Origin: Candidatus Berkelbacteria bacterium
Lineage (GTDB): Bacteria > Patescibacteriota > UBA1384 > DTJR01
Direction of reading: 5' to 3'
DNA length: 35,454 nt
Assembly: GCA_029865605.1 (NCBI GenBank)
Contig: JAOUGE010000009.1
Span: 1-35,454, forward strand
Numbering within the stretch: the first letter of the stretch is position 1; each line of letters opens with the position of its first letter. This document shows positions 2,383 through 26,857 of this stretch, one piece after another. A program made the translations under genes and the position numbers. The notes beneath the pieces were generated by a model. That model worked only from the letters and a program-made list of their open reading frames with translations, ran no database searches and was not told where the DNA came from.

Positions 2383-2682
2383 TTAATATCTATTTTTATC
2401 CCTCTTTATTACCTTTTTGAAGCTTTTTCTGATTGATCTATCGAGATCAATATTTTGGGAATTAGCCAAACAAATAAGAGTATAAATGATATCTCCTATT
2501 TCTTCTTCAAGCTCCTGTCTTTTTTCTTTGCTCTTTTTCTTCTTTTCTCCATAGAGATGATTGATAAGTCGGGCCAGCTCCCCGCATTCCTCGACGAGCC
2601 TAGCTAATATGGAAAGCGGTTGCCAGTATTGCCAATTATTTTTTTTGAACCACTCATCAAGTTCTTTTTGGTATTTTTTCAT
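2383..2682 (-). CDS. MazG-like nucleotide pyrophosphohydrolase
   Basis: 'LARLVEECGELARLI...EEEIGDIIYTLICLANSQNIDLDRS', a MazG/dUTPase-fold EExxE/ExxD pattern. Confidence 0.8.
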   Translation of the reverse strand: MKKYQKELDEWFKKNNWQYWQPLSILARLVEECGELARLINHLYGEKKKKSKEKRQELEEEIGDIIYTLICLANSQNIDLDRSIRKSFKKVIKRDKNRY

Positions 2683-5540
2683 AATATCGCTTCAGGGCAG
2701 ATATCTTTAAAAGGACAATCCCGACAGCTGCGCTTGTTGGGCTTTGCTTTCATGTTATTTGATCTTATTCCCATTTCGACCTCTCTGATCATTTCTTTAG
2801 TCTTGGCTAAATCTTTATCTTGAAATATATTCTCGCCTTTTAAGCCGGACTCGATAAAATAAAGAGTGGTTTTCGGCATCCGGGAGTATTTTTGCCAGTA
2901 GGCCAAGGCGTAAATCATCATTTGGGTTGATTCCTTGATTCTCCTGTCGGCCTCCTTTTGTTCTGTTACCCTTGAGGTTTTAAAATCAACAATTTCTACT
3001 GAATCTTTTGACCCGAGGACGATATCATACCTTCCGTTTACCTTAACCTTCCCCTCGCTAAATTCAAACCTCTCTTCGACGGCGGAAGGGACCAGGTTGT
3101 TTTTGATATCTTCTTCGTAAAATCTCGTTAGCGTTTCAATCCCGGATCTCTTTCTTTCCTCTTCCTGCTCTCTTGAGATAAATCCGACATTATTAAAAGC
3201 GGCAATGAAGTCTGAAGTTAGTTGGTCAAAACTTACCTTTTTCTTGGCGATTTTTCTTAAATAGTAGTGGCTTAAGGCGGCGTGAATAGCTGTGCCATAC
3301 ATTAGAGCGTGGTTTTCAAGTAGCGGGATGTTGAGGATATTGACATAATAGAATTTTTTTGGGCAGGTAAAGTAATCGTCAATTTGTTGTCTTGAGAGGC
3401 GAAGTGTTTCTTGGGTGAATTTTTTGGGTAGGTTTTGGGTTGCTCCGCCCGCCTTTTTAAAGCGCTCGATCCTCTCATATGGAGAGAGCTTGTGGGTTAG
3501 TTTTTGGGGGTTGGGCTCATCAAAAAATTCGAGAACGAACCTCGATAATTTTTTTGATCGTTTCCCGCCATAATCTTCAGCGGCAGTTAAAAATAAATAA
3601 TCTTTTGCTCGGGTTGTCCCGACATAGAAAAGCCTTCGTTCTTCTTGAAGGTGATAATCCCCGACCGGCAGACGCTCCTTGATAAATTCCTCTGGTATCG
3701 GTAGTTGGTCTCGCAGGTTTCTGGATGGAAACCGCTCCGACACACAGTTAACAATGAAGACTGCCTTCCACTCTAGACCTTTGGCGCCATGAACGGTTAA
3801 AATATTGACTACGTCAAGATCTGGGTCTATTTCGGGTGTAGCGACTTCATTCTCAAACTCAAGGATCAGCTCCAGATTTTCAAGAAAAGCCAGCACTCCC
3901 CTCTCTCGGCTAGCATGATTAAACTCGTTTATACGGTCGAAGAATCTTGCTATGCGACTCATCTTCAGCTCGTTTTCTGCCGTTGTTTCCTTCGAAAGCT
4001 TATTCAAGTATTTCTTCTCGGTGAGAAACCGATAAAGCACTTCACCGACAGGTTCACTTTTAAGTTTCCTGTAATTTTCCAAGTCGGATATTAAGATCCT
4101 TAGTTTTCTGTGCCCTGGCGAACGATCCACACAGATGATTTCTCTTATCGCCCTGTTTTTTCTTTTAGCTTGGGTGTAAAGTCTGCTCATTATTTCGTCT
4201 GGTACCGAGTAAAGCTCGCTCGCAGCTAACTGATAAAAAGAAAGGTTGTCATCATCATAGACCAAACATTTTAAAAACGAGACAAGCATTTTTATTTCCG
4301 GATGGGAGTAAAGGTCGGTTTTTCCGGAAAAGAGATAAGGAATGCCAGCTAAGTTGAGTGATTGAATAAACGGCTCAGCCTGACTGTTTGATCTAATAAG
4401 AATGGCAAAGTCATTATATGATAATCCCTTTTTCTTAAGCTCTGCTATTTTACTTATTGTTTTATCCGCTTCGCAAGAAAGAGTGTTGCAGAAAATCAAC
4501 TCCGGCTCAGACCCGTTTTTAAGAGCCAGCAGTTTTTTGTTGAGTTTATTTTTAACCTCCAGCCTATCTGGATTATTATGCTGGATTAGCTTGTAGGCGG
4601 CATCCAAGATTTCTTGGGTTGAGCGGTAATTTTTATTTAAAACAATTTGTTTCGCCCTAGGGTATGTTTTTATGAAATCGAGAATATTTGAAATTGCTGC
4701 TCCTCTGAACCGATAGATGGACTGATCGTCGTCGCCGACGACGGTAATATTTAGATGCTTTTTGGCCAGTAATTTTACGATTTCGTTTTGAGCAAAGTTG
4801 GTGTCCTGGAACTCGTCAACCAGAATAAACTTATATTTTTCCTGGCATTCTTTTAGAACGCGGGTGTTTTCTTTTAGCAGTTTATGGGTCAAGAATAATT
4901 GATCGCCGAAATCTAAGTTTCCGTTTTGGATCATCAACTGGTTATATTTTTCGTATGATATTACCAGCTCGAGTGTTCTTTCAGCTTCAACCAATTCTTC
5001 CTGGGTCGACTTCTTCTTTTTAGCTAATTGGTATTTTTTTCTAGCTAGGCCGATATATTCTTCAGGTTCGACCAATTCATCTTTTAGTCTTGAAAAATGA
5101 TTTAGCATTGCTTCGATAAATGAAGTCGGATTATTGGGGGGTCTAAAGTGCTTAAGCTTAAAGGCGTAGAGGTTTTGGCGAAAAAATATTGCTCTTTCGG
5201 TATCGGTTAGAACATTGAAGTTTGCCGGAAGAGAAAGCTCAATGGCATAATCTCTGATTAAGCGATCGCCAAAGGAATGGAAAGTTGAGATATTAGTGTC
5301 GGTAAAACCGTAGGGGACGAGTTGGTCTACCCGCTCTTCCATTTCCTGAGCCGCTTTTTCAGTAAAAGTGAGAGCTAAGATTTCTGCTGGCTCGGCTATT
5401 TTTTGAGCGATTAGGTAAGCAATTTTGCGGGTAATGACCGTTGTCTTGCCCGTCCCTGCGCCGGCAACGATAAGGCAAGGGCCGTGAGTGCATTTTATGG
5501 CCCGGGTTTGGTTGGCATTTAATCCCTTGAATAAGTCCAC
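2679..5540 (-). CDS. UvrD/PcrA-type superfamily 1 helicase with C-terminal RecB-like PD-(D/E)XK nuclease domain
   Basis: Walker A 'VAGAGTGKTTVI'; 'VDEFQDTN'; 'GDDDQSIYRFRGA'; 'NYRSTQEI'; 'LTVHGAKGLEWKAVF'; C-terminal 'VDFKTS' plus Cys motif 'RSCRDCPFKDIC'. Confidence 0.95.
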   Translation of the reverse strand: MDLFKGLNANQTRAIKCTHGPCLIVAGAGTGKTTVITRKIAYLIAQKIAEPAEILALTFTEKAAQEMEERVDQLVPYGFTDTNISTFHSFGDRLIRDYAIELSLPANFNVLTDTERAIFFRQNLYAFKLKHFRPPNNPTSFIEAMLNHFSRLKDELVEPEEYIGLARKKYQLAKKKKSTQEELVEAERTLELVISYEKYNQLMIQNGNLDFGDQLFLTHKLLKENTRVLKECQEKYKFILVDEFQDTNFAQNEIVKLLAKKHLNITVVGDDDQSIYRFRGAAISNILDFIKTYPRAKQIVLNKNYRSTQEILDAAYKLIQHNNPDRLEVKNKLNKKLLALKNGSEPELIFCNTLSCEADKTISKIAELKKKGLSYNDFAILIRSNSQAEPFIQSLNLAGIPYLFSGKTDLYSHPEIKMLVSFLKCLVYDDDNLSFYQLAASELYSVPDEIMSRLYTQAKRKNRAIREIICVDRSPGHRKLRILISDLENYRKLKSEPVGEVLYRFLTEKKYLNKLSKETTAENELKMSRIARFFDRINEFNHASRERGVLAFLENLELILEFENEVATPEIDPDLDVVNILTVHGAKGLEWKAVFIVNCVSERFPSRNLRDQLPIPEEFIKERLPVGDYHLQEERRLFYVGTTRAKDYLFLTAAEDYGGKRSKKLSRFVLEFFDEPNPQKLTHKLSPYERIERFKKAGGATQNLPKKFTQETLRLSRQQIDDYFTCPKKFYYVNILNIPLLENHALMYGTAIHAALSHYYLRKIAKKKVSFDQLTSDFIAAFNNVGFISREQEEERKRSGIETLTRFYEEDIKNNLVPSAVEERFEFSEGKVKVNGRYDIVLGSKDSVEIVDFKTSRVTEQKEADRRIKESTQMMIYALAYWQKYSRMPKTTLYFIESGLKGENIFQDKDLAKTKEMIREVEMGIRSNNMKAKPNKRSCRDCPFKDICPEAIL

Positions 5541-5547
5541 ATCAGTC

Positions 5548-5856
5548 TTATTTTAAAGCTCGCACGAGCTCTTCTTTTGAAACTACACCGTTGAGCTGAT
5601 CTGTTATTTTACCGTCTTTAAAGATTAGAATCGTTGGAATTGATATTATCTGAAACTTACTGGCCAGCTCGGTTTCTTGATCAACATCCACTTTATAAAT
5701 CTCCGCTTTGTCCTTAATTTCTTCGGCAAGTTCCTCAATTATTGGCGCCATCATCTGACAAGGTCCGCACCATGAGGCAAAAAAGTCAACCAGAACGGGT
5801 TTACCAGATTTTTTTACTTTTTTATCAAAGTCAGTTTTTGTAAGACTCTTTGCCAC
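5548..5856 (-). CDS. trxA: Thioredoxin
   Basis: 'VDFFASWCGPCQMMAPIIEELA' with the WCGPC active site. Confidence 0.95.
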   Translation of the reverse strand: MAKSLTKTDFDKKVKKSGKPVLVDFFASWCGPCQMMAPIIEELAEEIKDKAEIYKVDVDQETELASKFQIISIPTILIFKDGKITDQLNGVVSKEELVRALK

Positions 5857-6329
5857 GTCATGCCTCCTTCGGTTATTTTTTTATATATTGTGTAAATACT
5901 GAAAATAAGGGCGCAGAACAGGATGTCCGATAGCAGAGTATTCCGGTAGAAGGGAATTGCTTTGATGTAGCAATCCAAAAACCCTGGTAATGTTTGAGGA
6001 TACCAGCCACTCACCCAAACGCCAAAATTAGAAACAAGAAAAAAGGATACTGAACCGACAAGTGGAGCCCCGATAAACCCAATAGGCCCCTTTTTCGAGA
6101 GGATACTGGCTAGTGGGTAGGCCAGGAAACCGAGATACACAAAGGGGGTATAACTGCCGAATCCAAGAAAAATATCGGATATAAACATAGTCAAGATTAC
6201 AAAAGCGGCGGCCGCTGCCACACCTTTCTTGTTTCCAATAAAAACCGTTGCGGCTCCGATAGGTACAAAATTCGCCGGGTGAGGGATAAACCTTGATAGG
6301 GTTGAAACAAAAATCAAAACATAAAACAT
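5814..6329 (-). CDS. DUF6580-like membrane protein
   Basis: 'SRFIPHPANFVPIGAATVFIGNK...MFISDIFLGF' multi-TM pattern. Its 3' end overlaps the thioredoxin start. Confidence 0.7.
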   Translation of the reverse strand: MFYVLIFVSTLSRFIPHPANFVPIGAATVFIGNKKGVAAAAAFVILTMFISDIFLGFGSYTPFVYLGFLAYPLASILSKKGPIGFIGAPLVGSVSFFLVSNFGVWVSGWYPQTLPGFLDCYIKAIPFYRNTLLSDILFCALIFSIYTIYKKITEGGMTWQRVLQKLTLIKK

Positions 6330-7021: not shown

Positions 7022-7561
7022 TCAGTAGTCAACCCCCTCTATCGCTTTTACTCCCTTGTCGTAGAGGTGCTTTATCTTTTTCATTTCTGTTACAAGGTCG
7101 CTAAGTTCGATTAATTTGCTTATTTTGGGTCTGCCGGTTAAAACAATTGTTAAAGACGCGGGCTTGCTCTTGATTGTCTCGATGATTTCCTCCAAACTAA
7201 TAAGTTTTTTAGAAACCGCCCAATTGATCTCGTCAAGAACCAGAATGTCAATTTGACTGTTTAAGGCGGTTTTAACCGCTTTAAGTCCGAGCTTAGCCGC
7301 TTTGATGTGTTTTGTAAGTGGAATTTCGTCCTTTGGGTGCCCAATAAAGCCGAGGCCGTATTTTTCGATTTTAACCCCCGGTATTTTTTCGACCACTTTC
7401 TCTTCGGCGCTTTGCCGTCTCCCCTTGATAAATTGAATGATTTTAGTTTTTTTGCCTGCTCCCGCCGCTCTTAGGGCTAGTCCCAAGGCAGCTGTCGTCT
7501 TTCCTTTTCCATCACCAAAATAGGAAATTATAATCCCCTTTTCTGCATATTTGCTTTTCAC
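7022..7561 (-). CDS. cobO: Cob(I)yrinic acid a,c-diamide / corrinoid adenosyltransferase (CobA/CobO/BtuR family)
   Basis: 'GDGKGKTTAALGLALRAAGAGKKTKIIQFIKG' P-loop and 'DILVLDEINWAV'. Confidence 0.9.
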   Translation of the reverse strand: MKSKYAEKGIIISYFGDGKGKTTAALGLALRAAGAGKKTKIIQFIKGRRQSAEEKVVEKIPGVKIEKYGLGFIGHPKDEIPLTKHIKAAKLGLKAVKTALNSQIDILVLDEINWAVSKKLISLEEIIETIKSKPASLTIVLTGRPKISKLIELSDLVTEMKKIKHLYDKGVKAIEGVDY

Positions 7562-7577
7562 CTTACCCCTTTAACTT

Positions 7578-10500
7578 TTAGCTGCAGCCTGTTGTTGCCC
7601 CGCAATTAAGGCATTTATAGCACTTTCCGTTTAAAACCATGGTGGCCGAGCCGCATTCGAGGCACATTTCTCCCGAGAAGCCGAGCTTAGAGCTCAAGTT
7701 TTCCAGGTTCCTGGCGGGGTCAGATTGGGCCTGTTTGAAAAATAGCCGCCCTGCCTCGTGCCCGTTTTCATCGGCTTCCTTTTCTTTTTCGAACGGTAAT
7801 TCTACTGCTTTGGTTTTGCCTTCTAGGAACTTTTTTTGGAACCACTGGGCGATGTAATCGGATATTGAGGAAGCGCTCTGCACATCCGGATCCCCCGTAT
7901 AACCCATCGGCTGAAATCTCATATGCTTTAGCTGGGAGATGATTGTTTCAAGGGGAACGCCGTATTGGAGGCCGATCGAAACCATCTTGGCGAATGAATC
8001 AGCCATGCCAGCGGCAAAACTTCCCTGCTGATTCATGACAATAAAGAGCTCTCCGGCTCTCCCGTCGTTATAAAGGCCGACCGTAAAATACATTTTATGT
8101 CCGCCAATAGAAACTTTTCTCGTGATCGACATTCTCTCTTTAGGCATTCTTTGCCTGACTGGTTTATACTCAACAACCGTTTCACTTGTTTCTTCCTTAG
8201 TTTTTATTTCCTTAGAGGTCAGCGGTTGGGAAACTTTTGATCCATCACGGTAAATAGCTATGGCCTTCAAACCCAATCGCCAGGATTCCATATATACCTT
8301 TTCTATTTCCTCTTTAGTCGCTTCATTTGGCAGATTTACGGTTTTTGATATTGCACCGGAGAGAAAGGGTTGGGCTGTGGCCATCATCTTAATATGCCCA
8401 TCGGCTAGGATAAATCTCTTTCCTATTTCGCCGCATTTGTTGGCGCAATCAAATATTGAGAGGTGTTCCTCCTTAAGATATGGAGCGCCTTCAGCGGACA
8501 TCGAGCCGCAAATTGCCCTGTTTGCCTCTGAGATTTGCTCTTTTGAAAATCCAAGCTCTGAAAGCAAGTTGAAGTCTGCGCTCGAGGCCTTGGTCTGGCT
8601 GATACCCCACTTGGCCAAATTATCTTTAGTAACGATATCAGGACTATTAAAGGTCTGGCTGATGTCGAAGGAACCCGAAAGGCGCGATCCTATTAATTTA
8701 ATATCTGCTTCGGTCAAGCCCTTCTGCAGTAGAGAAGTCCTGTTTACGTGTGGTGCGTTTTCTAGGCTTCCCGAACCGATTATATATTCAATGATTTTAT
8801 CTATTTGCTCCTCTTTGTATTTAAGATTTTTCAGGGCTCTGAGGACGGACTGGTTAATGATTTTAAAGCATCCCCCACCGGCGAGCTTTTTAAATTTGAC
8901 TAGAGCATAATCGGGCTCAACGCCTGTTGTGTCACAATCCATTACTAATCCGATTGTCCCCGTTGGGGCAAGCAGTGTCACTTGAGCATTTCTAAAACCG
9001 TACCGTCCGCCATCAAGCAGAGCTTTGTCCCAGGCTTCCCGAGCTGCTTTAAGAATGTATTCGGGCTGGTTTTTTTCCTCAACAATAAACGGCTTGATGG
9101 TTAAGTTTTCATACTCGTCCTTTTTTGCGTTATAGGCCGCCCTGCGGTGGTTTCTTATTACCCTTAACATATCCGCCTTGTTTTTTTCATATCCTTCGAA
9201 GGGCTTGGCTTCTTTGGCCATTTCTGCCGACGTAGCGTAGGCGGTTGCGGTCATTAGTGAGGTTATAGCAGCGGCGATTCCTCTTCCTCGGTCGGAGTCG
9301 TATGGTTTCCCCGCGATCATAAGTAGTGCGCCAAGGTTTGCGTAGCCGAGGCCCAGCGGCCTGTAAAGATAGCTGTTTTTAGCGATTTCATATGAAGGAA
9401 ATTGGGCCATCAAAACCGAGATTTCTAGAACGATTGTCCACAGTCTTACTGCATGCTGGAAGGCTGTAATATTAAATTGGTTATTTTTCTCATCGTAAAA
9501 TTTAACCAGATTTAATGAAGCTAAATTGCAGGATGAGTCATCGAGAAACATAAATTCGCTGCAGGGATTTGAAGCGTTGATTCTTCCCGAGGAAAGGCAG
9601 GTATGCCAGTTATTAATATTAGTGTCAAACTGGAGACCCGGGTCGCCACAGCGCCAGGCGGCATCAGCAATTTTATCCCAAAGTTGTTTTGCCTTGACAG
9701 TTTTCGAGATGTGCTCGGGATTGGTCCGCCACCTAAGGTGCCATTCTCCTTCTTGCTCGACCGCTCTCATAAAATCATCCGTTACTCTTATAGAGTTGTT
9801 CGAATTCTGACCGGAAACGGTCTGGTAGGCCTGACCCTCAATCCCGCCGGTATAGCCTGCGGCGATTAGAGCAGCCGCCTTTTCCTCTTCTTTGTATTTC
9901 CACCCGATAAATTTCTCAATATCGGGGTGGTCGATATTTATAATCACCATTTTTGAGGCTCTTCTGGTTGTCCCTCCTGATTTTATTGCGCCCGCTCCCC
10001 TGTCAAATATTTGTAGCCAGCTCATAAGCCCGGACGATTTTCCTCCGCCCGAAAGGGGCTCTCCTTCTGCCCTAAGACTTGAAAAGTTCGTTCCATTTCC
10101 GGAGCCGTACTTAAAAATCCTCGCCTCTTTTATAGCTAAATCGAAGATCCCCCCGCTGTTTACCAAATCGTCCTTTATTGATTGGATAAAGCAGGCATGG
10201 GGCTGGGGCCTTGTATAGGCATCTTCAGACTGTTTTAATTTTCCCGTTTTGGGATCGGCATACCAATGACCTTGGGCGGGACCGGTAATTCCGTAGCGTA
10301 GTGCCAGGCCGGTATTGAACCACTGGGGGGAGTTAGGCGCACCGTATTGATGCAATAACATATAGGATAATTCATCCTCAAAACGGTCAGCATCGGTCCT
10401 CGATGTAAAGTACCGAAACTTCTCTCCCCACCACCTCCAACCGTAAGCAAGCCTTTTAATTATCTGCTTAACCGACTGTTCGGCTCCTAGTTTTGGTTTG

Positions 10501-10820
10501 CCGTCTTTGTCTAAAATAGGCTTTCCATATTTGTCGTATTGAGGAACTTGGCTTTTTCTTAGGTATTTTGAGATGAGAATGTCTGAAGCCAGTCTCGACC
10601 AATTTCTGGGTATTTCTATGTCATTCATCTCAAAAACGACAGATCCGTCAGCATTGCTGATTTTCGAGCTTCTTAGTTCATATTGAGTCGATTCAAAAGG
10701 GTCTTCCCCGAGTTTTGTGAAAAATCTTTCTATTTTTAAACCCTTCTTGTTTCTTGACGGCCCGCCTTTCTTTTTCCCGCTTGGCGTTTTTGTTTGAACT
10801 CTTACAGCGACTTTTGGCAA
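7578..10820 (-). CDS. nrdJ: Adenosylcobalamin-dependent (class II) ribonucleoside-diphosphate reductase
   Basis: 1080 aa: '[13 protein letters not shown]', '[21 protein letters not shown]', '[34 protein letters not shown]', and a C-terminal Cys cluster '[28 protein letters not shown]'. Confidence 0.96.
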   Translation of the reverse strand: [1080 protein letters not shown]

Positions 10821-19039: not shown

Positions 19040-19645
19040 CTAGTGAAATTTTCTTATTACTCCTCTTACCCGCCCCTGCACCAATGCTCGCCGGGTATAA
19101 ATCGGCTTGTAGCTTTTGTTAGCCGGTTGGAGTCTAATCCTGGTTTTTTCTCTGAAAAATCTCTTTAAGGTAACGTTTTCGTTATCAACCAGGGCCACTA
19201 CGATATCGCCGTTTCTCGGATGATTGGTTTTCTCGATAATCACGTAATCACCATCGAATATGCCGTCTTCAACCATGGAATCGCCGGATACTTTTAGGGC
19301 AAAGACGTTTGGCCCCATCATATCGCGTGGGATTTCAATAGTTTCGTTGGTTCTGATTGCTTCAATTGGTTTTCCGGCCGAGATGATGCCAATCAGAGGT
19401 ATTTCAAAGGCTCGCTCCTCCCATGAGGGGGTGAGCTGGAGCGAGCGGGCATTTCCGTCTTCTTTGGTCAAATAACCCTTTGCTTCAAGGACGCTGATAT
19501 ATTCAGCTACAGTAGCTACCGAGGTGAATCCCAGCTCGGAGGCTACCTCTCGATAGCTCGGAGCATAATTATTTTCTTCGATAAAGGACTTAATGTAGTT
19601 GTAGATCCCAAGCTGCTTTTTTGTGAGAGGGAGTTGCTTTTTCAT
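19040..19645 (-). CDS. lexA: LexA repressor
   Basis: 'LTKKQLGIYNYIKSFIEENNYAPSYREVASELGF', AG cleavage site 'ISAGKPIEA', 'KVSGDSMVEDGI', 'GDIVVALVDNENVTLKRF'. Start taken at the internal ATG (the track begins at 19666). Confidence 0.94.
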   Translation of the reverse strand: MKKQLPLTKKQLGIYNYIKSFIEENNYAPSYREVASELGFTSVATVAEYISVLEAKGYLTKEDGNARSLQLTPSWEERAFEIPLIGIISAGKPIEAIRTNETIEIPRDMMGPNVFALKVSGDSMVEDGIFDGDYVIIEKTNHPRNGDIVVALVDNENVTLKRFFREKTRIRLQPANKSYKPIYTRRALVQGRVRGVIRKFH

Positions 19646-19702
19646 TAATTTAACGCTACCAAACAAATCCCGAACTTGTCAATACCTCGATCTTGCTTAG
19701 TA

Positions 19703-19736: not shown

Positions 19737-20849
19737 CTATTTTTTGAACGTTTCTTGGATCGCCTGCCAATTTCCCGGGTCTTCCCGGCCGAGGCGCCAT
19801 ATTCCTATTCCCTGCAGAGAATATTTTTTAGCTAGTTCTGCTCTCGATTTAACCGACTCGCTGTTATTAAACCAGACCTCATGGTTTTTGTCTTCCTTCT
19901 GGTAGCTAAAGTATGATTCCTTCGATGCGCCGTCGGATTTAACCGTCGGATTATTTTTCTTGACTATCTTTTGAACATCCTGCCAGGTCAGATCTGTTGC
20001 ATTTTCTTCAACCCAGTCATAACCGTAGAATGGCACGCCGAGATAGATTTTTTCCTTAGGGATTTCTTTGACTGCTAGCTTAATCACATCTTCCGTCCAG
20101 TCAAGCGGTGAAATTGCCCCTGCCTCTGAAGTTGCCCAGTGATAGTCGTAAGTCATAATTTTAACTTCATCGCAGATTTTGCCGAGCTCCGTCCAGTCTT
20201 GGGCCTGCGGCCCATCCCATGTCCCCGGCTCTTCGGTTTTAGCATGAAGAGCCGTTGCTAAGGTTTTGTTTTGTTTTTTTAGCTCAACTGAAAGTTTGCT
20301 CATAAATGATGTATAGGCCTCTTTGTTCTTAGCCAACAGGCTCTCGTAGTCAATTTCTATCCCGTCATAGCCGTTCTTTTCTACCAGTTTTAAGATGTTT
20401 CTAATATGCAGATCGATTTTGGCCGAATCTGTTATTATCGGCCCCACTAAGTCCGGATCGCTGTCATTGGTAATTGTAGCGACCACTTTTATTTTATTGG
20501 CTTTGGCAAACCCGATTATTTCTTGGTCTTCCGCGCCGGCGAGCTTTTCGATACTGCCGCTTTCTTCCACTCTGTACCAGAAGGGCCTGACTGATGAGAT
20601 TGAGGCGGCATTTTGCTTTAAGCTTTCAAATCCTTTTTCTTGGTCCCACCAAACAAGCCAGGCATTTACTTTCTGGCTTAAGTCTAACTTTGCAACCGCA
20701 GCCGGGCTTTTTGATGCTGTCGCTGTAGTTGTTGTGGGTTGCTCTGCGGTCTTTTTGCTAAGTCCCGATAAGCTGTAATAGTAACCGCCGGCAAATCCGG
20801 CAATTAATCCTAGTATTAGAACCAAAACTAATGCTAGTCCCCTTTTCAT
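19737..20849 (-). CDS. Glycoside hydrolase family 18-like (YaaH-type) protein
   Basis: 'NGYDGIEIDYESLLAKNKEAYTSFMSKLS', 'KIMTYDYHWATSEAGAISPLDW', 'IYLGVPFYGYDW'. Confidence 0.9.
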   Translation of the reverse strand: MKRGLALVLVLILGLIAGFAGGYYYSLSGLSKKTAEQPTTTTATASKSPAAVAKLDLSQKVNAWLVWWDQEKGFESLKQNAASISSVRPFWYRVEESGSIEKLAGAEDQEIIGFAKANKIKVVATITNDSDPDLVGPIITDSAKIDLHIRNILKLVEKNGYDGIEIDYESLLAKNKEAYTSFMSKLSVELKKQNKTLATALHAKTEEPGTWDGPQAQDWTELGKICDEVKIMTYDYHWATSEAGAISPLDWTEDVIKLAVKEIPKEKIYLGVPFYGYDWVEENATDLTWQDVQKIVKKNNPTVKSDGASKESYFSYQKEDKNHEVWFNNSESVKSRAELAKKYSLQGIGIWRLGREDPGNWQAIQETFKK

Positions 20850-20862
20850 TTTCTTTCCTAAC

Positions 20863-21144
20863 TTACATCTTACTAAATAATTTTCTTAACTCCACTTTGG
20901 CTTGATTAAGGGTTTTCTTCTGGCTCGCTGGCAGACCCTTCCCAGCCCGGTTGATGTAAAAGTTAAGCATTGACATTGCCGACTGAAACGGGTGGGCTTT
21001 CTTTCGAGAGCTTTTTTCGGCGGACCGTTTAAGGGAAAGAGCGATTTGGTGCGGGTCCCCGGATATAAAGACCCCTTCTTCCAAGTCAAGAGCATTGCTT
21101 TTCTCCGTAACCTCTTTCGACCAATATTTTTTCTTTGTTGCCAT
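20863..21144 (-). CDS. DUF3175 domain protein
   Basis: 'KKKYWSKEVTEKSNALDLEEGVFISGDPHQIALSLKRSAEKS...MSMLNFYINRAGKGL'. Confidence 0.8.
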   Translation of the reverse strand: MATKKKYWSKEVTEKSNALDLEEGVFISGDPHQIALSLKRSAEKSSRKKAHPFQSAMSMLNFYINRAGKGLPASQKKTLNQAKVELRKLFSKM

Positions 21145-21173: not shown

Positions 21174-23282
21174 TTAGGAACCTGTTTCGGGCAATATATT
21201 GGTAATTTCAGATGACGGTGATTCTTTAACCTCGAAGGTTTTAGCTGAGTATCCGCCATAGTAGGTAAAAGAAATTTCACCTGAATTGTTAGATTGAAAT
21301 GACCCGAAATAGTTCCCGTCAACGTAGACGGTATAGTCAGTAATTGCCTTAAGCTCGCCGATAGTATGCGAAGTGATGATATTGCTTGCTGAACCATCCT
21401 CCGTCCATTTTTTATAGTAATTTCCCGAAGTCTGCCAAGTATCAATCGTTAGATCAATTGAGCCTGTGTTCGGTGTTACTGCTAAGTTAACCGTCTCGAG
21501 CGTTCTTGTCTGTGAGGCAGACAGGTTTACTGAAAAGCTATCATTGCCGGCTGATAAAATTTGATTTGTGATTCCTAAAAATGGGTGATTCAAATTGGAA
21601 AAATTTAAATCGGTGTTCTGAGAGGATAGTAAAGGATTCTCAAGGGTCAGGGAAAAATTGGCGTTATCCGATTTTTTGACCGCTGACTTTATTATTAAGT
21701 TATCGTTTGAAATGTTAAACAAAGCTAAAGCAGAGGGATATGAATAAGTAAAATCAGCATAGCTTGTCTCCGCAGGAGTGCTGCGCCAATGCGGATCACC
21801 GTTCGCTCTTAACTTCAAAGCTAGCCAATACCAATGCCAAGGATAGTCAATAGACCAATTAAAGCCAGTAAGATTTCTGTTAATAAAGGCATAGCTTACA
21901 GCAGAAGGTACTGTTAAGCTGACGTCCCTGGTTGTGGAATAGGTAACAAACCTTTCAATACCTAATACTCCGGAGGTATTTAAAGTGTACCAAGTGTTAG
22001 TATCAACCGCTGTAAGATTAGCCAAGGGATAGTTTGGAATAATATCGGGGGAATTTTGAATCCAGGCCCCACAGGTCCACTCTTCAGTTTTAGTTGGCAG
22101 GGAAAAAATTAGAGACTTTGCATCGTTACCGCTTGGCTGACCATGAACAGGATTCGTTCCCCTTAAATAAAATCTGGTGGTGACTGTTTCCAATGAGCCA
22201 GTAAAGAAAATGTAATTTCTTTTGCTTAGATTGTTGTTGGTGTCAGTTACAGTTACATTAAGAGTATATATTCCGCTTAGCCCCGGGGCAAAATTTCCTG
22301 TTAAATTATTGCTTGACTTATTAATTGCGATGGGTTCAGTGGGAGAGGTGGAGATGCTGTAAGCACAATCAGCGCAGGCAGCCCCAGTAGCATTAAGCAT
22401 AAAAATATTATAACTGATAGATTCACCCACATTCCTTGTCCTTGTTTGTTCTGTGAAGCTTATCATTTTCGGCTTGGCAGAATGTAGAAATTGATTTGAT
22501 GATATAGTATTTGTCCCAGAACCTGTTAAATCTTCATTTGAATTATAAACTTTGTTATTACTTATAGTGTTTGTTGAGGCAGATAGATAAAAGGCAACAG
22601 CTGAAGTTCTGATGGTATTATTACTAACGTTATTGCCAGTGCTTGTTCCTTCTAAGCTAATTGCTTTTTGTTGATAGATAAAAGTGTTATTGCTTATCGT
22701 GCCGGAATTAGCATTGCTTATTCGCAGCCCATTATGATTTTGGTTAAAGTTATTTGCCGAAATTATGGCTGAATTGGAGGAAGATAGAAACATATCGCAG
22801 CTCCCCAGGCCGGTGGATTTACCTAAAGTATTTCCAGAGATATTGGCAGAGGGAGAAGATTCAAGGCGAAGATTGTAAAAATTCTCTTCCGATACATTAT
22901 TTTGAATAATAGGAGAATCACTATTTAATAAATAGATGCCATAATCAAACCCGCTGATTTTATTGAAATTTATGATAGTAATATTGTCCCATCCGCCAGC
23001 ACCATTCGTAATACCATCATTTAAAATATCTGTCCCAATAATTGAATGGCCATTGCCGTTAATAGTAATGCCAGAAGCTCCGATTATTAAACCGTTAGTC
23101 GCCGGACAATTGAGATCAGAGCTTAGTGTATAATTAGAAGTCACTGTATCACCGCAAACACAAGGAGTGACCCCGCCGCAGTTTGCCGCCTTGGTCTTTG
23201 CTGGAGGATAGAATATCAACAAAATAATCCCAACAATGGCCCCGAGCAGAAATATTATTATCTTGGGTGCTTTCACGTCCAC
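21174..23282 (-). CDS. Secreted right-handed parallel beta-helix (NosD/PbH1-like) surface protein ending in LPETGS
   Basis: N-terminal signal/TM; repeated 'IISANNFNQNHNGLRISNANSGTISNNTF' beta-helix turns; C-terminal 'ITNILPETGS*'. Confidence 0.85.
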   Translation of the reverse strand: MDVKAPKIIIFLLGAIVGIILLIFYPPAKTKAANCGGVTPCVCGDTVTSNYTLSSDLNCPATNGLIIGASGITINGNGHSIIGTDILNDGITNGAGGWDNITIINFNKISGFDYGIYLLNSDSPIIQNNVSEENFYNLRLESSPSANISGNTLGKSTGLGSCDMFLSSSNSAIISANNFNQNHNGLRISNANSGTISNNTFIYQQKAISLEGTSTGNNVSNNTIRTSAVAFYLSASTNTISNNKVYNSNEDLTGSGTNTISSNQFLHSAKPKMISFTEQTRTRNVGESISYNIFMLNATGAACADCAYSISTSPTEPIAINKSSNNLTGNFAPGLSGIYTLNVTVTDTNNNLSKRNYIFFTGSLETVTTRFYLRGTNPVHGQPSGNDAKSLIFSLPTKTEEWTCGAWIQNSPDIIPNYPLANLTAVDTNTWYTLNTSGVLGIERFVTYSTTRDVSLTVPSAVSYAFINRNLTGFNWSIDYPWHWYWLALKLRANGDPHWRSTPAETSYADFTYSYPSALALFNISNDNLIIKSAVKKSDNANFSLTLENPLLSSQNTDLNFSNLNHPFLGITNQILSAGNDSFSVNLSASQTRTLETVNLAVTPNTGSIDLTIDTWQTSGNYYKKWTEDGSASNIITSHTIGELKAITDYTVYVDGNYFGSFQSNNSGEISFTYYGGYSAKTFEVKESPSSEITNILPETGS

Positions 23283-23495
23283 CTTCTTTCCTAGATTATA
23301 CCAGAATGGTTACCGGATACTCTTGCAAGGTACGAACAGGCGACGCCAGACATTATATTGTTATTACTGATAACTGACTTAATCGTTGTTGCCGGTAGTA
23401 GTCTGGCGACGCTAAAAAGGATTATAAATATGCCGATTATTGTACTTTTTACTATGAGCAGCTTTTTATAATTTATAACCCCCATCTAGTGTTTT

Positions 23496-24281
23496 CTACA
23501 TTGGTCTTAAAGTTCCGGCGAAAACTTGCCAAGCGAGTAGCGACTTGGCGACAAGGCTTAAGATGATATAAGCTTTTTCTCCGTAGAGATAGTCCTGCCA
23601 GCGCCCGACTTTTTTGTATTGGAGAACTTGGTTGATGGCAAAGCAGTTAAAGAAAATAAAAATCGAGAAGTAAATCCAGTAGACAAAGTTCGGGGCGCGG
23701 TACTCTCCTTCTCCGGCAGCGAAAAGATAAATTGCGATTGCAACCCACGGAATAATTCCGGCGATACAGCCGAAAATAAAAGACGTCCAGTCGGTCTTTT
23801 CTGTAGTTTGGTTGTGAAGCTCCATCAGCCAACCGAAAAGGATCATCGAGGCATTAAGACCAAAGAGGACGATTAGGGTTGAAAGTTCATATATTCCAAC
23901 CAGCATGGCAATAATGATAATCATCAGCGACGAGCTGAAGGCATATTCAATCCAACGGGCAGGATTAATGTGGTTGGCGAGTTTCTTAATGTACCATCCG
24001 TAAAAAACGGTTGAGACGGCAAAATGAGCTATCGCGGAAAGAAAAAGAAATGCCGCTACGGCCGGGCCTATTTGCAGGTTAAATATCATTTCCGGAGCTG
24101 GCTGAAGCGATTGAGTGCTCGCATTGAAGTTTAAAAAGTTTCCGATTACTGGCAGCGAAAAATCACTTGACAGTATGAGCATCACCACACTCTGTGCTAA
24201 GTGCAAAAATCCCATTGCTATATTCCACCCCCTAAGGTTTCGCGCTGATTTTTCCGGGATCGTGGTTTTCTCTTTTGTCAT
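23496..24281 (-). CDS. Heliorhodopsin
   Basis: 261 aa, seven TM; 'LRGWNIAMGFLHLAQSVVMLILS', 'INPARWIEYAFSSSLMIIIIAML' (E112), 'FFNCFAINQVLQYKKVGRWQDYLYGEKAYIILSLVAKSLLAWQVFAGTL' (retinal Lys K246). Confidence 0.95.
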   Translation of the reverse strand: MTKEKTTIPEKSARNLRGWNIAMGFLHLAQSVVMLILSSDFSLPVIGNFLNFNASTQSLQPAPEMIFNLQIGPAVAAFLFLSAIAHFAVSTVFYGWYIKKLANHINPARWIEYAFSSSLMIIIIAMLVGIYELSTLIVLFGLNASMILFGWLMELHNQTTEKTDWTSFIFGCIAGIIPWVAIAIYLFAAGEGEYRAPNFVYWIYFSIFIFFNCFAINQVLQYKKVGRWQDYLYGEKAYIILSLVAKSLLAWQVFAGTLRPM

Positions 24282-24326: not shown

Positions 24327-24944
24327 TTATTCTATCCCAAAATTCTCTAAAAAATAACCTTCGCTATATTTTTCGAAATTAAATTGTTTATTCGCTTCTT
24401 TGTTCAGAATATGAATATAGTCGTAAAAGTCTTTTTCAGAAAAAAGATTAAGCCCTAAGTCTTTGCAAACCTTACCAATCCTTTCGAGCGCTTTTTCTTT
24501 ATTTTCTTGAGATGTCATAATTTCCGCCTCGAAAAAATAACTGTGATTTGGCACCTCAACTAGCGAAAATTCAATTCCTTTATATTTATAAATTTTACCC
24601 CGCCTGATCACGCTGACTCCTTTTGTAAAGCCCATCGCGCCCATCATCATGATCATTTTGTGAAATTCGCCCGGCTTTCCAGTTAAGCAGAATTCGCGGC
24701 GGTTTTCATCAACTGCTCCCCACTTCCCCTTTTTGATAATAATTTCTGGAATGCCGTTTGTATTTCTAACCCTGATGTCGGTATTGCAATTTTCAACCAG
24801 ACTTCCAGTGTCTGGATCGGGGTAGCAAATCGCAAATCGATTTTTGTCGGCGACGAATTTACCTTCCTCAGAGAGCTTTTTTTGCAATTCTAAAAACTGC
24901 TTTTCGGTCAGCGGCCCTCGAATCTCAACTTCGGTATTTTTCAC
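24327..24944 (-). CDS. CYTH-domain (adenylate cyclase class IV / triphosphatase-like) protein
   Basis: 'VKNTEVEIRGPLTEKQFLELQKKL', 'DIRVRNTNGIPEIIIKKGKW', 'GIEFSLVEVPNHSYFFEAEIM'. Start trimmed to GTG 24944 because the track's N-terminus overlaps the next ORF. Confidence 0.65.
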   Translation of the reverse strand: MKNTEVEIRGPLTEKQFLELQKKLSEEGKFVADKNRFAICYPDPDTGSLVENCNTDIRVRNTNGIPEIIIKKGKWGAVDENRREFCLTGKPGEFHKMIMMMGAMGFTKGVSVIRRGKIYKYKGIEFSLVEVPNHSYFFEAEIMTSQENKEKALERIGKVCKDLGLNLFSEKDFYDYIHILNKEANKQFNFEKYSEGYFLENFGIE

Positions 24945-24982: not shown

Positions 24983-25165
24983 TTACATCTTTAAAAACTC
25001 GAGCAGCTTGTATACAAGAAACGCTGGCCAGACGAGGGCTTTGATAAATCCCCACACTCCTTGCCAAAAACTATCCGCGTGCTGGATGAAGTAAACCGCA
25101 GCCCCAATAAACGCCAGTCCGTAAACTCCGCCGGAAGCTCCATGCCCGTGCCATTTTTTAGCCAT
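24983..25165 (-). CDS. Small membrane protein
   Basis: 60 aa: MAKKWHGHGASGGVYGLAFIGAAVYFIQHADSFWQGVWGFIKALVWPAFLVYKLLEFLKM. Confidence 0.65.
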   Translation of the reverse strand: MAKKWHGHGASGGVYGLAFIGAAVYFIQHADSFWQGVWGFIKALVWPAFLVYKLLEFLKM

Positions 25166-25189: not shown

Positions 25190-26212
25190 TTATTTTTTTG
25201 GCTCGTCGCTTTTTGTTGGTTCATTTATGACTTTATATACCATAATATATTTGTTGTCGCCAATCTTTGTAACACCCGGGTCGTTCGGAGGCAGGCTGCC
25301 GGGGCGGTTAAAATATGTGCTTCCTCTGGTAAATTTAATGCCATCAGCGGAAGTAGCTATGCCGATTCCGCCTTGGTCTGGGGTTGCACCGACCATTGGA
25401 CTATATAGATAAAATTTAGAGCCGTCATGATAGATGCTGGGTATAAACCCTTTGTCAAACGCGGTTCCCCTGTCAGTGAAACTTATTCCATCATCTGAAG
25501 TTGCAACGGTGATGATGCCTTCTTTGCCGCAGTATAAGTACCAGGTATCGTTTACCTTAATTACATCCGGATCGAATATTGCATTATCAGCAAACCGATA
25601 TCCATCATCCATCTTGAAATTCACACCATCATTGGAAGTCGCTGAATAGATGTAATTGGGTTGAGTTTGTTTAGAGTCTTTTTCTTGCTCTTGCTTTTGC
25701 GAAGATACACGTCCGGCGCCGATGTCGAAGAAAAAGAGCTTCATTGTGCCATCCTCAAGCAGGAGCAGAGAGGGGTCGGCAACTGTTTTTTGGCCAAGCC
25801 CTTCGATATTTGCAATTGTTTTTTCTTGCCAAGTTTTGCCTTCATCTGAAGAGCGTATCAGAGCTAATTGTTCTGGCTTGCCATCTTCGGAAAAGTCAAG
25901 AAAATAGACATAAACTATACCGTTACGGTAGATTGCCTCTGGAACACTAGCGTGTCTGGCCAATAGATTATTCGAGTCTGTCCAATTCAAAAGATCGACG
26001 CTGGTAGCATAGTAGATATCGTGGCTGTACGGGCTGTCGGCCATTTGCGACCACTCATACAAGTTGCTATTTGTGGGGGTATCGCTTTCTTCTGCTTTCC
26101 TTTGGCTTGTCTTAACGGGATCAATCACACTTTTTCTATAAAGCCAGAATGCCAAACTAGCAACAGCCAATGTCAAAACCACGATTAACCCAATTAACCA
26201 TTTTTTTGCCAT
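25190..26212 (-). CDS. Membrane-anchored five-bladed beta-propeller protein (GH43/GH32/sialidase-like fold)
   Basis: N-terminal TM; repeats such as 'PYSHDIYYATSVDLLNWTD', 'FDPDVIKVNDTWYLYCGKEGIITVATSDDGISFT', 'GGIGIATSADGIKFT'. Confidence 0.75.
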   Translation of the reverse strand: MAKKWLIGLIVVLTLAVASLAFWLYRKSVIDPVKTSQRKAEESDTPTNSNLYEWSQMADSPYSHDIYYATSVDLLNWTDSNNLLARHASVPEAIYRNGIVYVYFLDFSEDGKPEQLALIRSSDEGKTWQEKTIANIEGLGQKTVADPSLLLLEDGTMKLFFFDIGAGRVSSQKQEQEKDSKQTQPNYIYSATSNDGVNFKMDDGYRFADNAIFDPDVIKVNDTWYLYCGKEGIITVATSDDGISFTDRGTAFDKGFIPSIYHDGSKFYLYSPMVGATPDQGGIGIATSADGIKFTRGSTYFNRPGSLPPNDPGVTKIGDNKYIMVYKVINEPTKSDEPKK

Positions 26213-26251: not shown

Positions 26252-26857
26252 CTACTTCACCCTTCGTAACTTATAGCGAAAGTTTTCTAATACTATCAAC
26301 AAAAAAATAATGCCAACGATTGCAACGGCTGTCTGATATCGCTCAAGTGGATATTTTGCTACGAGAAAATAGATGGGAATCAACGAAGGAATTAGGAAAG
26401 GAAGCACTTTGGTAACACTCTCTACCCTGAAAGGCTTTTTTTGTTCAGCAAAAAATTTCTCCCAGCCCAAAATATTACTTTTATACTTATTGTCTAAACG
26501 GGGCTTAATTTGTTCGTGAAAATATTTGGGGATTGATTCGAGCGAGCTCTGGTTTGTTTGATAACTGAATGCTAACAGATCCATTACAATCGGTATCAAC
26601 AGGAGAAAAGTGTAAATCGTTTCTTTTTTTACCTCAAGTGTTACCATACCGAAAAACATTACTATAAAAACAACCCAAAAAATAATTGCTAGGTTTATAG
26701 TGTGGTTCAAAAATATAATCCGCTCGCTTAGTTCGTGGCGGAGATTTTCGAATTCTAAAATGTACCACATCTCCTCACCATCTTTGAGTTCCTGCCTGCC
26801 TGTTGGAGTTTGCGGTTTTATTTTTTGTCGGCCAATAAGCGATTCAAGGTTTCTCAT
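26252..26857 (-). CDS. Hypothetical four-TM membrane protein
   Basis: 201 aa ORF with paired TM hairpins. Confidence 0.6.
   Translation of the reverse strand: MRNLESLIGRQKIKPQTPTGRQELKDGEEMWYILEFENLRHELSERIIFLNHTINLAIIFWVVFIVMFFGMVTLEVKKETIYTFLLLIPIVMDLLAFSYQTNQSSLESIPKYFHEQIKPRLDNKYKSNILGWEKFFAEQKKPFRVESVTKVLPFLIPSLIPIYFLVAKYPLERYQTAVAIVGIIFLLIVLENFRYKLRRVK

Follow-up and report, generated by a model that had tools for sequence, protein, structure and literature searches.

Retinal isomerization, transfer of the Schiff base proton, and a slow photocycle are established for other heliorhodopsins (HeRs). Bulzu et al. 2021 found the family to be confined to monoderms (PMC8612252). Chiriac et al. 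2022 screened 1326 CPR genomes for HeRs, with records from Saccharimonadia, ABY1, Microgenomatia, Dojkabacteria, Kazan-3B-28, UBA1384, CPR2, and CPR3; the motif SLVAK heads the list of the commonest HeR motifs in CPR (PMC9166423). HeRs of other organisms regulate an ABC transporter, a glutamine synthetase, and a photolyase (PMC11109279). The closest described systems include TaHeR from a Thermoplasmatales archaeon (PDB 6IS6) and the HeR 48C12 (PDB 6SU3). The SacR rhodopsins of Saccharibacteria are CPR rhodopsins likewise thought to be reliant on external retinal, but they are type-1 light-driven pumps and not HeRs (PMC9296517).

The HeR gene described here lies in a window of 35,454 nucleotides, the whole stretch of DNA that was analyzed, which is contig C10 of a 22-contig, 794,328-base assembly (genome G000) of 91.7% completeness. 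Its product, although new, is an ordinary representative of a family that was already known. A HeR in a patescibacterial genome is expected and not surprising, because HeRs have been published from Patescibacteria and occur among the sampled relatives. The gene shares the family, the TM7 motif SLVAK, and the broad host group with the HeRs of Chiriac et al. 2022 (PMC9166423) and differs in species and locus.

Identity and retinal site of the heliorhodopsin

23496-24281, minus strand: HeR gene, 261 aa, ATG start, with R109, E112, H27, H86, and S242xxxK246 (family models, alignment, and predicted structure)

The initial annotation read this open reading frame as a heliorhodopsin, and it is practically certain that the gene encodes such a type-3 rhodopsin. 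The family model PF18761 matches residues 16 to 258 over model positions 1 to 242 of 242 with 347.9 bits (E value of 3e-104; Pfam cut-off of 26.7), and the NCBIfam HeR equivalog NF038020 reaches 361.4 bits (cut-off of 100). The start codon is preceded by AGGAG at a distance of ∼9 nucleotides. Crystallized HeRs align with the protein without large gaps, with pairwise identities of 57.7% to TaHeR and 49.4% to 48C12. TaHeR is archaeal, and its loop between TM5 and TM6 is four residues shorter, while 48C12 belongs to a separate supported branch of the HeR tree.

An AlphaFold model built from a 40-sequence alignment (pLDDT of 93.3; pTM of 0.88) shows seven long helices, with 6IS6, 7CLJ, and 6SU3 as the best PDB matches. 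The ten best matches are HeRs without exception, with TM-scores of 0.85 to 0.90 (0.90 for 6IS6), compared to about 0.45 to 0.63 for type-1 rhodopsins. The protein thus has the fold of both TaHeR and 48C12. With the N terminus placed inside, the loops contain 8 lysine and arginine residues inside versus 2 outside, a charge count that would fit such a topology.

Lys246, Ser242, Glu112, Arg109, His27, and His86 were confirmed by position, and the residues that the initial annotation had put in equivalent places (Lys246, Glu112, Arg109, and His27/His86) align exactly. Residues N20, H27, H86, R109, E112, Y113, S116, S242, and K246 are invariant in the alignment of the window protein with 39 other HeRs. 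The TM7 motif is SLVAK (S242-L-V-A-K246), and the retinal-site motifs are identical to those of TaHeR and shared with 48C12. K246 lies inside the helix of residues 231 to 254 of the model, which is TM7, so that the lysine is in the expected register. Computation from the sequence shows an intact retinal site, with K246 as the predicted Schiff base lysine, E112 as the putative counterion, and R109 and H27/H86 in place.

Host, distribution, and phylogeny

The contig also encodes FtsZ, with identities of 87% and 84% to the proteins of two genomes of the same family and of 82% to that of a genome of the same order. The contig therefore belongs in the bin, and a binning error was ruled out. The HeR loci of three relatives (L056, L069, and L084) are identical in DNA to NCBI records named Candidatus Berkelbacteria, and the locus L064 is identical to MWBO01000059.1 (ADurb.Bin280, which NCBI places in candidate division WS2). 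These matches point to a host near Berkelbacteria, and the patescibacterial origin suspected from the window alone is borne out by them and by the agreement of FtsZ.

Of the 99 genomes sampled among relatives, 33 contain a HeR above the cut-off; in a phylum-wide sample of 380 genomes, 55 do. A PF18761 match in the genome G102 proved to be a false positive, an ABC transporter. In the tree, the window HeR groups with those of L058 and L064 (support of 100/99), its closest HeRs at 78% identity, and is nested in a clade of ten HeRs, all of the same class (support of 98/87), which agrees with its assignment to the family. The HeRs of Berkelbacteria-type genomes (L056, L062, L058, and L064) are 68 to 79% identical to it and fall in one supported clade, but the flanking genes are distinct in every genome. 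The window HeR thus adds one well-supported patescibacterial member and leaves the picture of the family unchanged.

The tree took in HeRs only, with neither a type-1 outgroup nor a viral HeR. This bears on the idea that the protein transports protons like some HeRs of giant viruses. Proton-transporting viral HeRs exist, as mentioned in PMC11109279, where Hososhima 2022 is cited. The window HeR groups with the prokaryotic HeRs, which in a tree of this composition is no direct test, and prokaryotic HeRs are reported to be without pumping (PMC8612252). A proton-transporting role is considered extremely unlikely.

The HeR and FtsZ phylogenies disagree. The same-family genome G001 shows 87% identity to the host in FtsZ and 68% in HeR, whereas the class-mate G040 from another family is closer in HeR (about 79%) than in FtsZ (72%). 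The sequences suggest either an exchange of HeRs within the class or old paralogues that were sorted differently. Together with the patchy presence in 33 of 99 genomes, this disagreement favors a transferred passenger gene that has hardly any selected function in the host, or none. Such a passenger is quite improbable, as the reading frame is intact and all functional residues are retained in a streamlined genome, and the copies of most relatives are likewise intact. HeR genes split by frameshifts or accompanied by extra C-terminal fragments were observed in L135 (977-1787, plus strand), L084 (near 8000-8770), and L082 (near 8000-10250); errors of sequencing or duplicates in decay could account for them.

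Three other genomes of the phylum (L136, L137, and L138) share a syntenic block that holds tailed HeR-like genes and is unrelated to the window. Tailed genes are found at L100:862-1791 (plus strand), L109:1492-2442 (minus strand), and L099:992-1933 (minus strand). Their proteins carry an N-terminal tail of 50 to 60 residues, rich in Lys, Ala, Thr, and Ser and histone-H1-like, and a vWA/pseudopilin-like gene lies upstream in two of the three loci. Apart from the tail, the protein of G408 (L109) has the canonical residues (SLVAK, E, and R), and that of G181 (L099) retains D and K. In the positional counterpart from G229 (L100), the Schiff base lysine and the counterion are both lost (WIGL and VLVSAVAW), with an intact reading frame and a PF18761 score of still 150 bits. 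A search of the literature, which was not exhaustive, found no description of a lysine-less tailed HeR. This relative, with the fold and the tail but no retinal site, may work without light. A very divergent HeR-like membrane protein of 247 aa from the same phylum (L098:853-1596, minus strand) scores 22 bits with PF18761, below the cut-off.

Retinal supply

The initial annotation saw no retinal-biosynthesis gene in the window and proposed that retinal is scavenged, a reading that holds when the search for blh and crt genes is extended to the rest of the genome, each search including a positive control. The phytoene synthase (SQS_PSY) family is undetected in the host genome (7 control genomes positive), and a member is present in just 9 of 53 HeR-positive genomes. 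No Blh/Brp-type dioxygenase (BCD) was found in the 53 HeR-positive genomes, and a BCD search with a Natrinema genome as the positive control gave a match in Natrinema and none in the host. An RPE65-type oxygenase was detected neither in the host nor in the sampled relatives (2 controls positive). These absences in the host rest on an assembly that is 91.7% complete, so that a retinal gene may lie in the missing part.

Because the known retinal-synthesis genes are undetected genome-wide, we infer scavenging of retinal by the host as the best reading. A HeR is reported to take up externally added retinal fast, via an opening (PMC9296517). A patescibacterial HeR in a host with no detected known route to retinal fits the idea that retinal is a shared commodity.

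Another cofactor may be borrowed by the same organism. An ATP:corrinoid adenosyltransferase (BtuR/CobO; 7022-7561, minus strand) adjoins a B12-dependent ribonucleotide reductase (7578-10820, minus strand), with a DUF6580 membrane protein (5814-6329) nearby. Cobalamin salvage is a possible explanation of this group.

Gene neighborhood and possible function

The HeR gene is part of a run of genes in one direction, in which it stands between the CYTH-like and the beta-helix genes:

26252-26857, minus strand: 201-aa protein without a family, first of the co-directional run (ORF list and Pfam)
25190-26212, minus strand: membrane-anchored GH43-type beta-propeller, 340 aa (PF04616, 37.2 bits; cut-off of 32.2)
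24983-25165, minus strand: small membrane protein of 60 aa, an ORF with a ribosome-binding site and no family match
24327-24944 (ORF listed to 25067), minus strand: CYTH-like protein of about 205 aa when read from the probable GTG start, a weak domain assignment
21174-23282, minus strand: secreted beta-helix (NosD-like) surface protein, 702 aa (PF05048, 59.9 bits; PF13229, 35.6 bits)
20863-21144, minus strand: DUF3175 protein, 93 aa (PF11373, 140.6 bits)
19737-20849, minus strand: GH18 family protein, 370 aa (PF00704, 111.8 bits)

The GH18, DUF3175, NosD/beta-helix, and GH43-type propeller assignments, which had been named as neighbors at the outset, lie above the Pfam cut-offs, but the CYTH-domain enzyme of the same list does not: PF01928 reaches 14.5 bits (cut-off of 23.2), and the cyaB model reaches 36.8 bits (cut-off of 57.95; E value of 3e-9). 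This gene probably starts at GTG 24944 and not at TTG 25067, because the 60-aa membrane protein ends at 24983 and AAGGAG precedes the GTG codon. Given this start, the gaps flanking the CYTH-like gene are 38 and 45 nucleotides; the HeR gene and the beta-helix gene are 213 nucleotides apart. A 64-aa ORF after the HeR gene (23291-23485) was rejected as a gene because it matches no family, lacks a good ribosome-binding site, and has no detected relative. The window contains no Rfam match and no tRNA. In a scan for promoters and terminators, the counts were close to or lower than those expected from shuffling.

The genes around patescibacterial HeR loci and named loci were compared all against all. 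None of the genes flanking the window HeR falls in a cluster, and the clusters found elsewhere are loose and not widespread; the significance implied for the listed neighbors is lost with this result. The sole clustering window gene near the HeR encodes a LexA-type repressor (19040-19666), shared with one or two other loci. Since the HeR-flanking genes are unshared with other HeR loci, they do not speak for any particular function. No known partner (glutamine synthetase, photolyase, ABC transporter, or kinase) is adjacent on the same strand, and no photolyase was found in the host genome. The 33 HeR-bearing genomes of the relatives sample have no common neighbor, so gene context alone will not show the role of the HeR in this patescibacterial group. 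Gene order around HeRs differs across the loci of related genomes, and the context-based argument of Bulzu et al. for a sensor is therefore little supported here.

The immediate neighbors allow a reading in which the HeR is a light-gated regulator of its operon, acting with the small membrane protein and the CYTH-like enzyme, possibly a class IV adenylate cyclase or a triphosphatase, so that light alters a nucleotide or polyphosphate signal. The genes are co-directional with gaps of 24 to 45 nucleotides, and the cyaB match has an E value of 3e-9. This regulation is very unlikely: the CYTH-like matches fall under the curated cut-offs, the gaps exceed the criterion of <10 bp of Bulzu et al., the neighbors cluster with no genes beside other patescibacterial HeRs, and even the closest HeRs (L058 and L064) have different neighbors. 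A light-controlled enzyme module composed of the HeR, its CYTH-like neighbor, and the membrane protein of 60 aa is highly improbable. If it did exist, a nucleotide or triphosphate signal would take its input from the HeR, in a bacterium that has a small genome, probably depends on a host, and obtains its retinal from outside.

A second proposal couples the sensor to two-component signaling via an unlinked histidine kinase, a link put forward by Bulzu et al. (PMC8612252). The only HisKA kinase detected in the host (L107:3830-5653, plus strand; contig 18 of the assembly) has a predicted 7TM input region (HisKA_7TM, 42.6 bits), and HisKA occurs in 31 of 33 HeR-positive versus 50 of 66 HeR-negative genomes (Fisher p = 0.03, a value that ignores phylogeny, genome size, and completeness). 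The association is weak, two HeR-positive genomes are without HisKA, and the kinase of the host lies on a separate contig from the HeR, which leaves this coupling unlikely.

The reading preferred here, a functional HeR with an intact retinal site and borrowed retinal that acts as a light sensor or regulator, is considered fairly probable by analogy with other HeRs, a judgment that covers retinal binding and the sensory role jointly. From knowledge inherited from the family, the protein would not be a pump. Following established HeR work, the N terminus would lie in the cytoplasm. Retinal would come from neighbors, from prey, or from the cells of a host and would attach to K246, where light would isomerize it. 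The Schiff base proton would then move to the His27/His86 region, near E112, and a slow photocycle would lead to a long-lived state, the cytoplasmic face of which may alter the activity of a partner protein. The genome points to no particular partner, since there is no conserved neighbor and no photolyase and the HisKA-type kinase is unlinked.

Elsewhere in the window, a gene at 2679-5540 (minus strand) encodes a UvrD/PcrA-type helicase of 953 aa with a fused C-terminal Cas4/PD-(D/E)XK nuclease domain.
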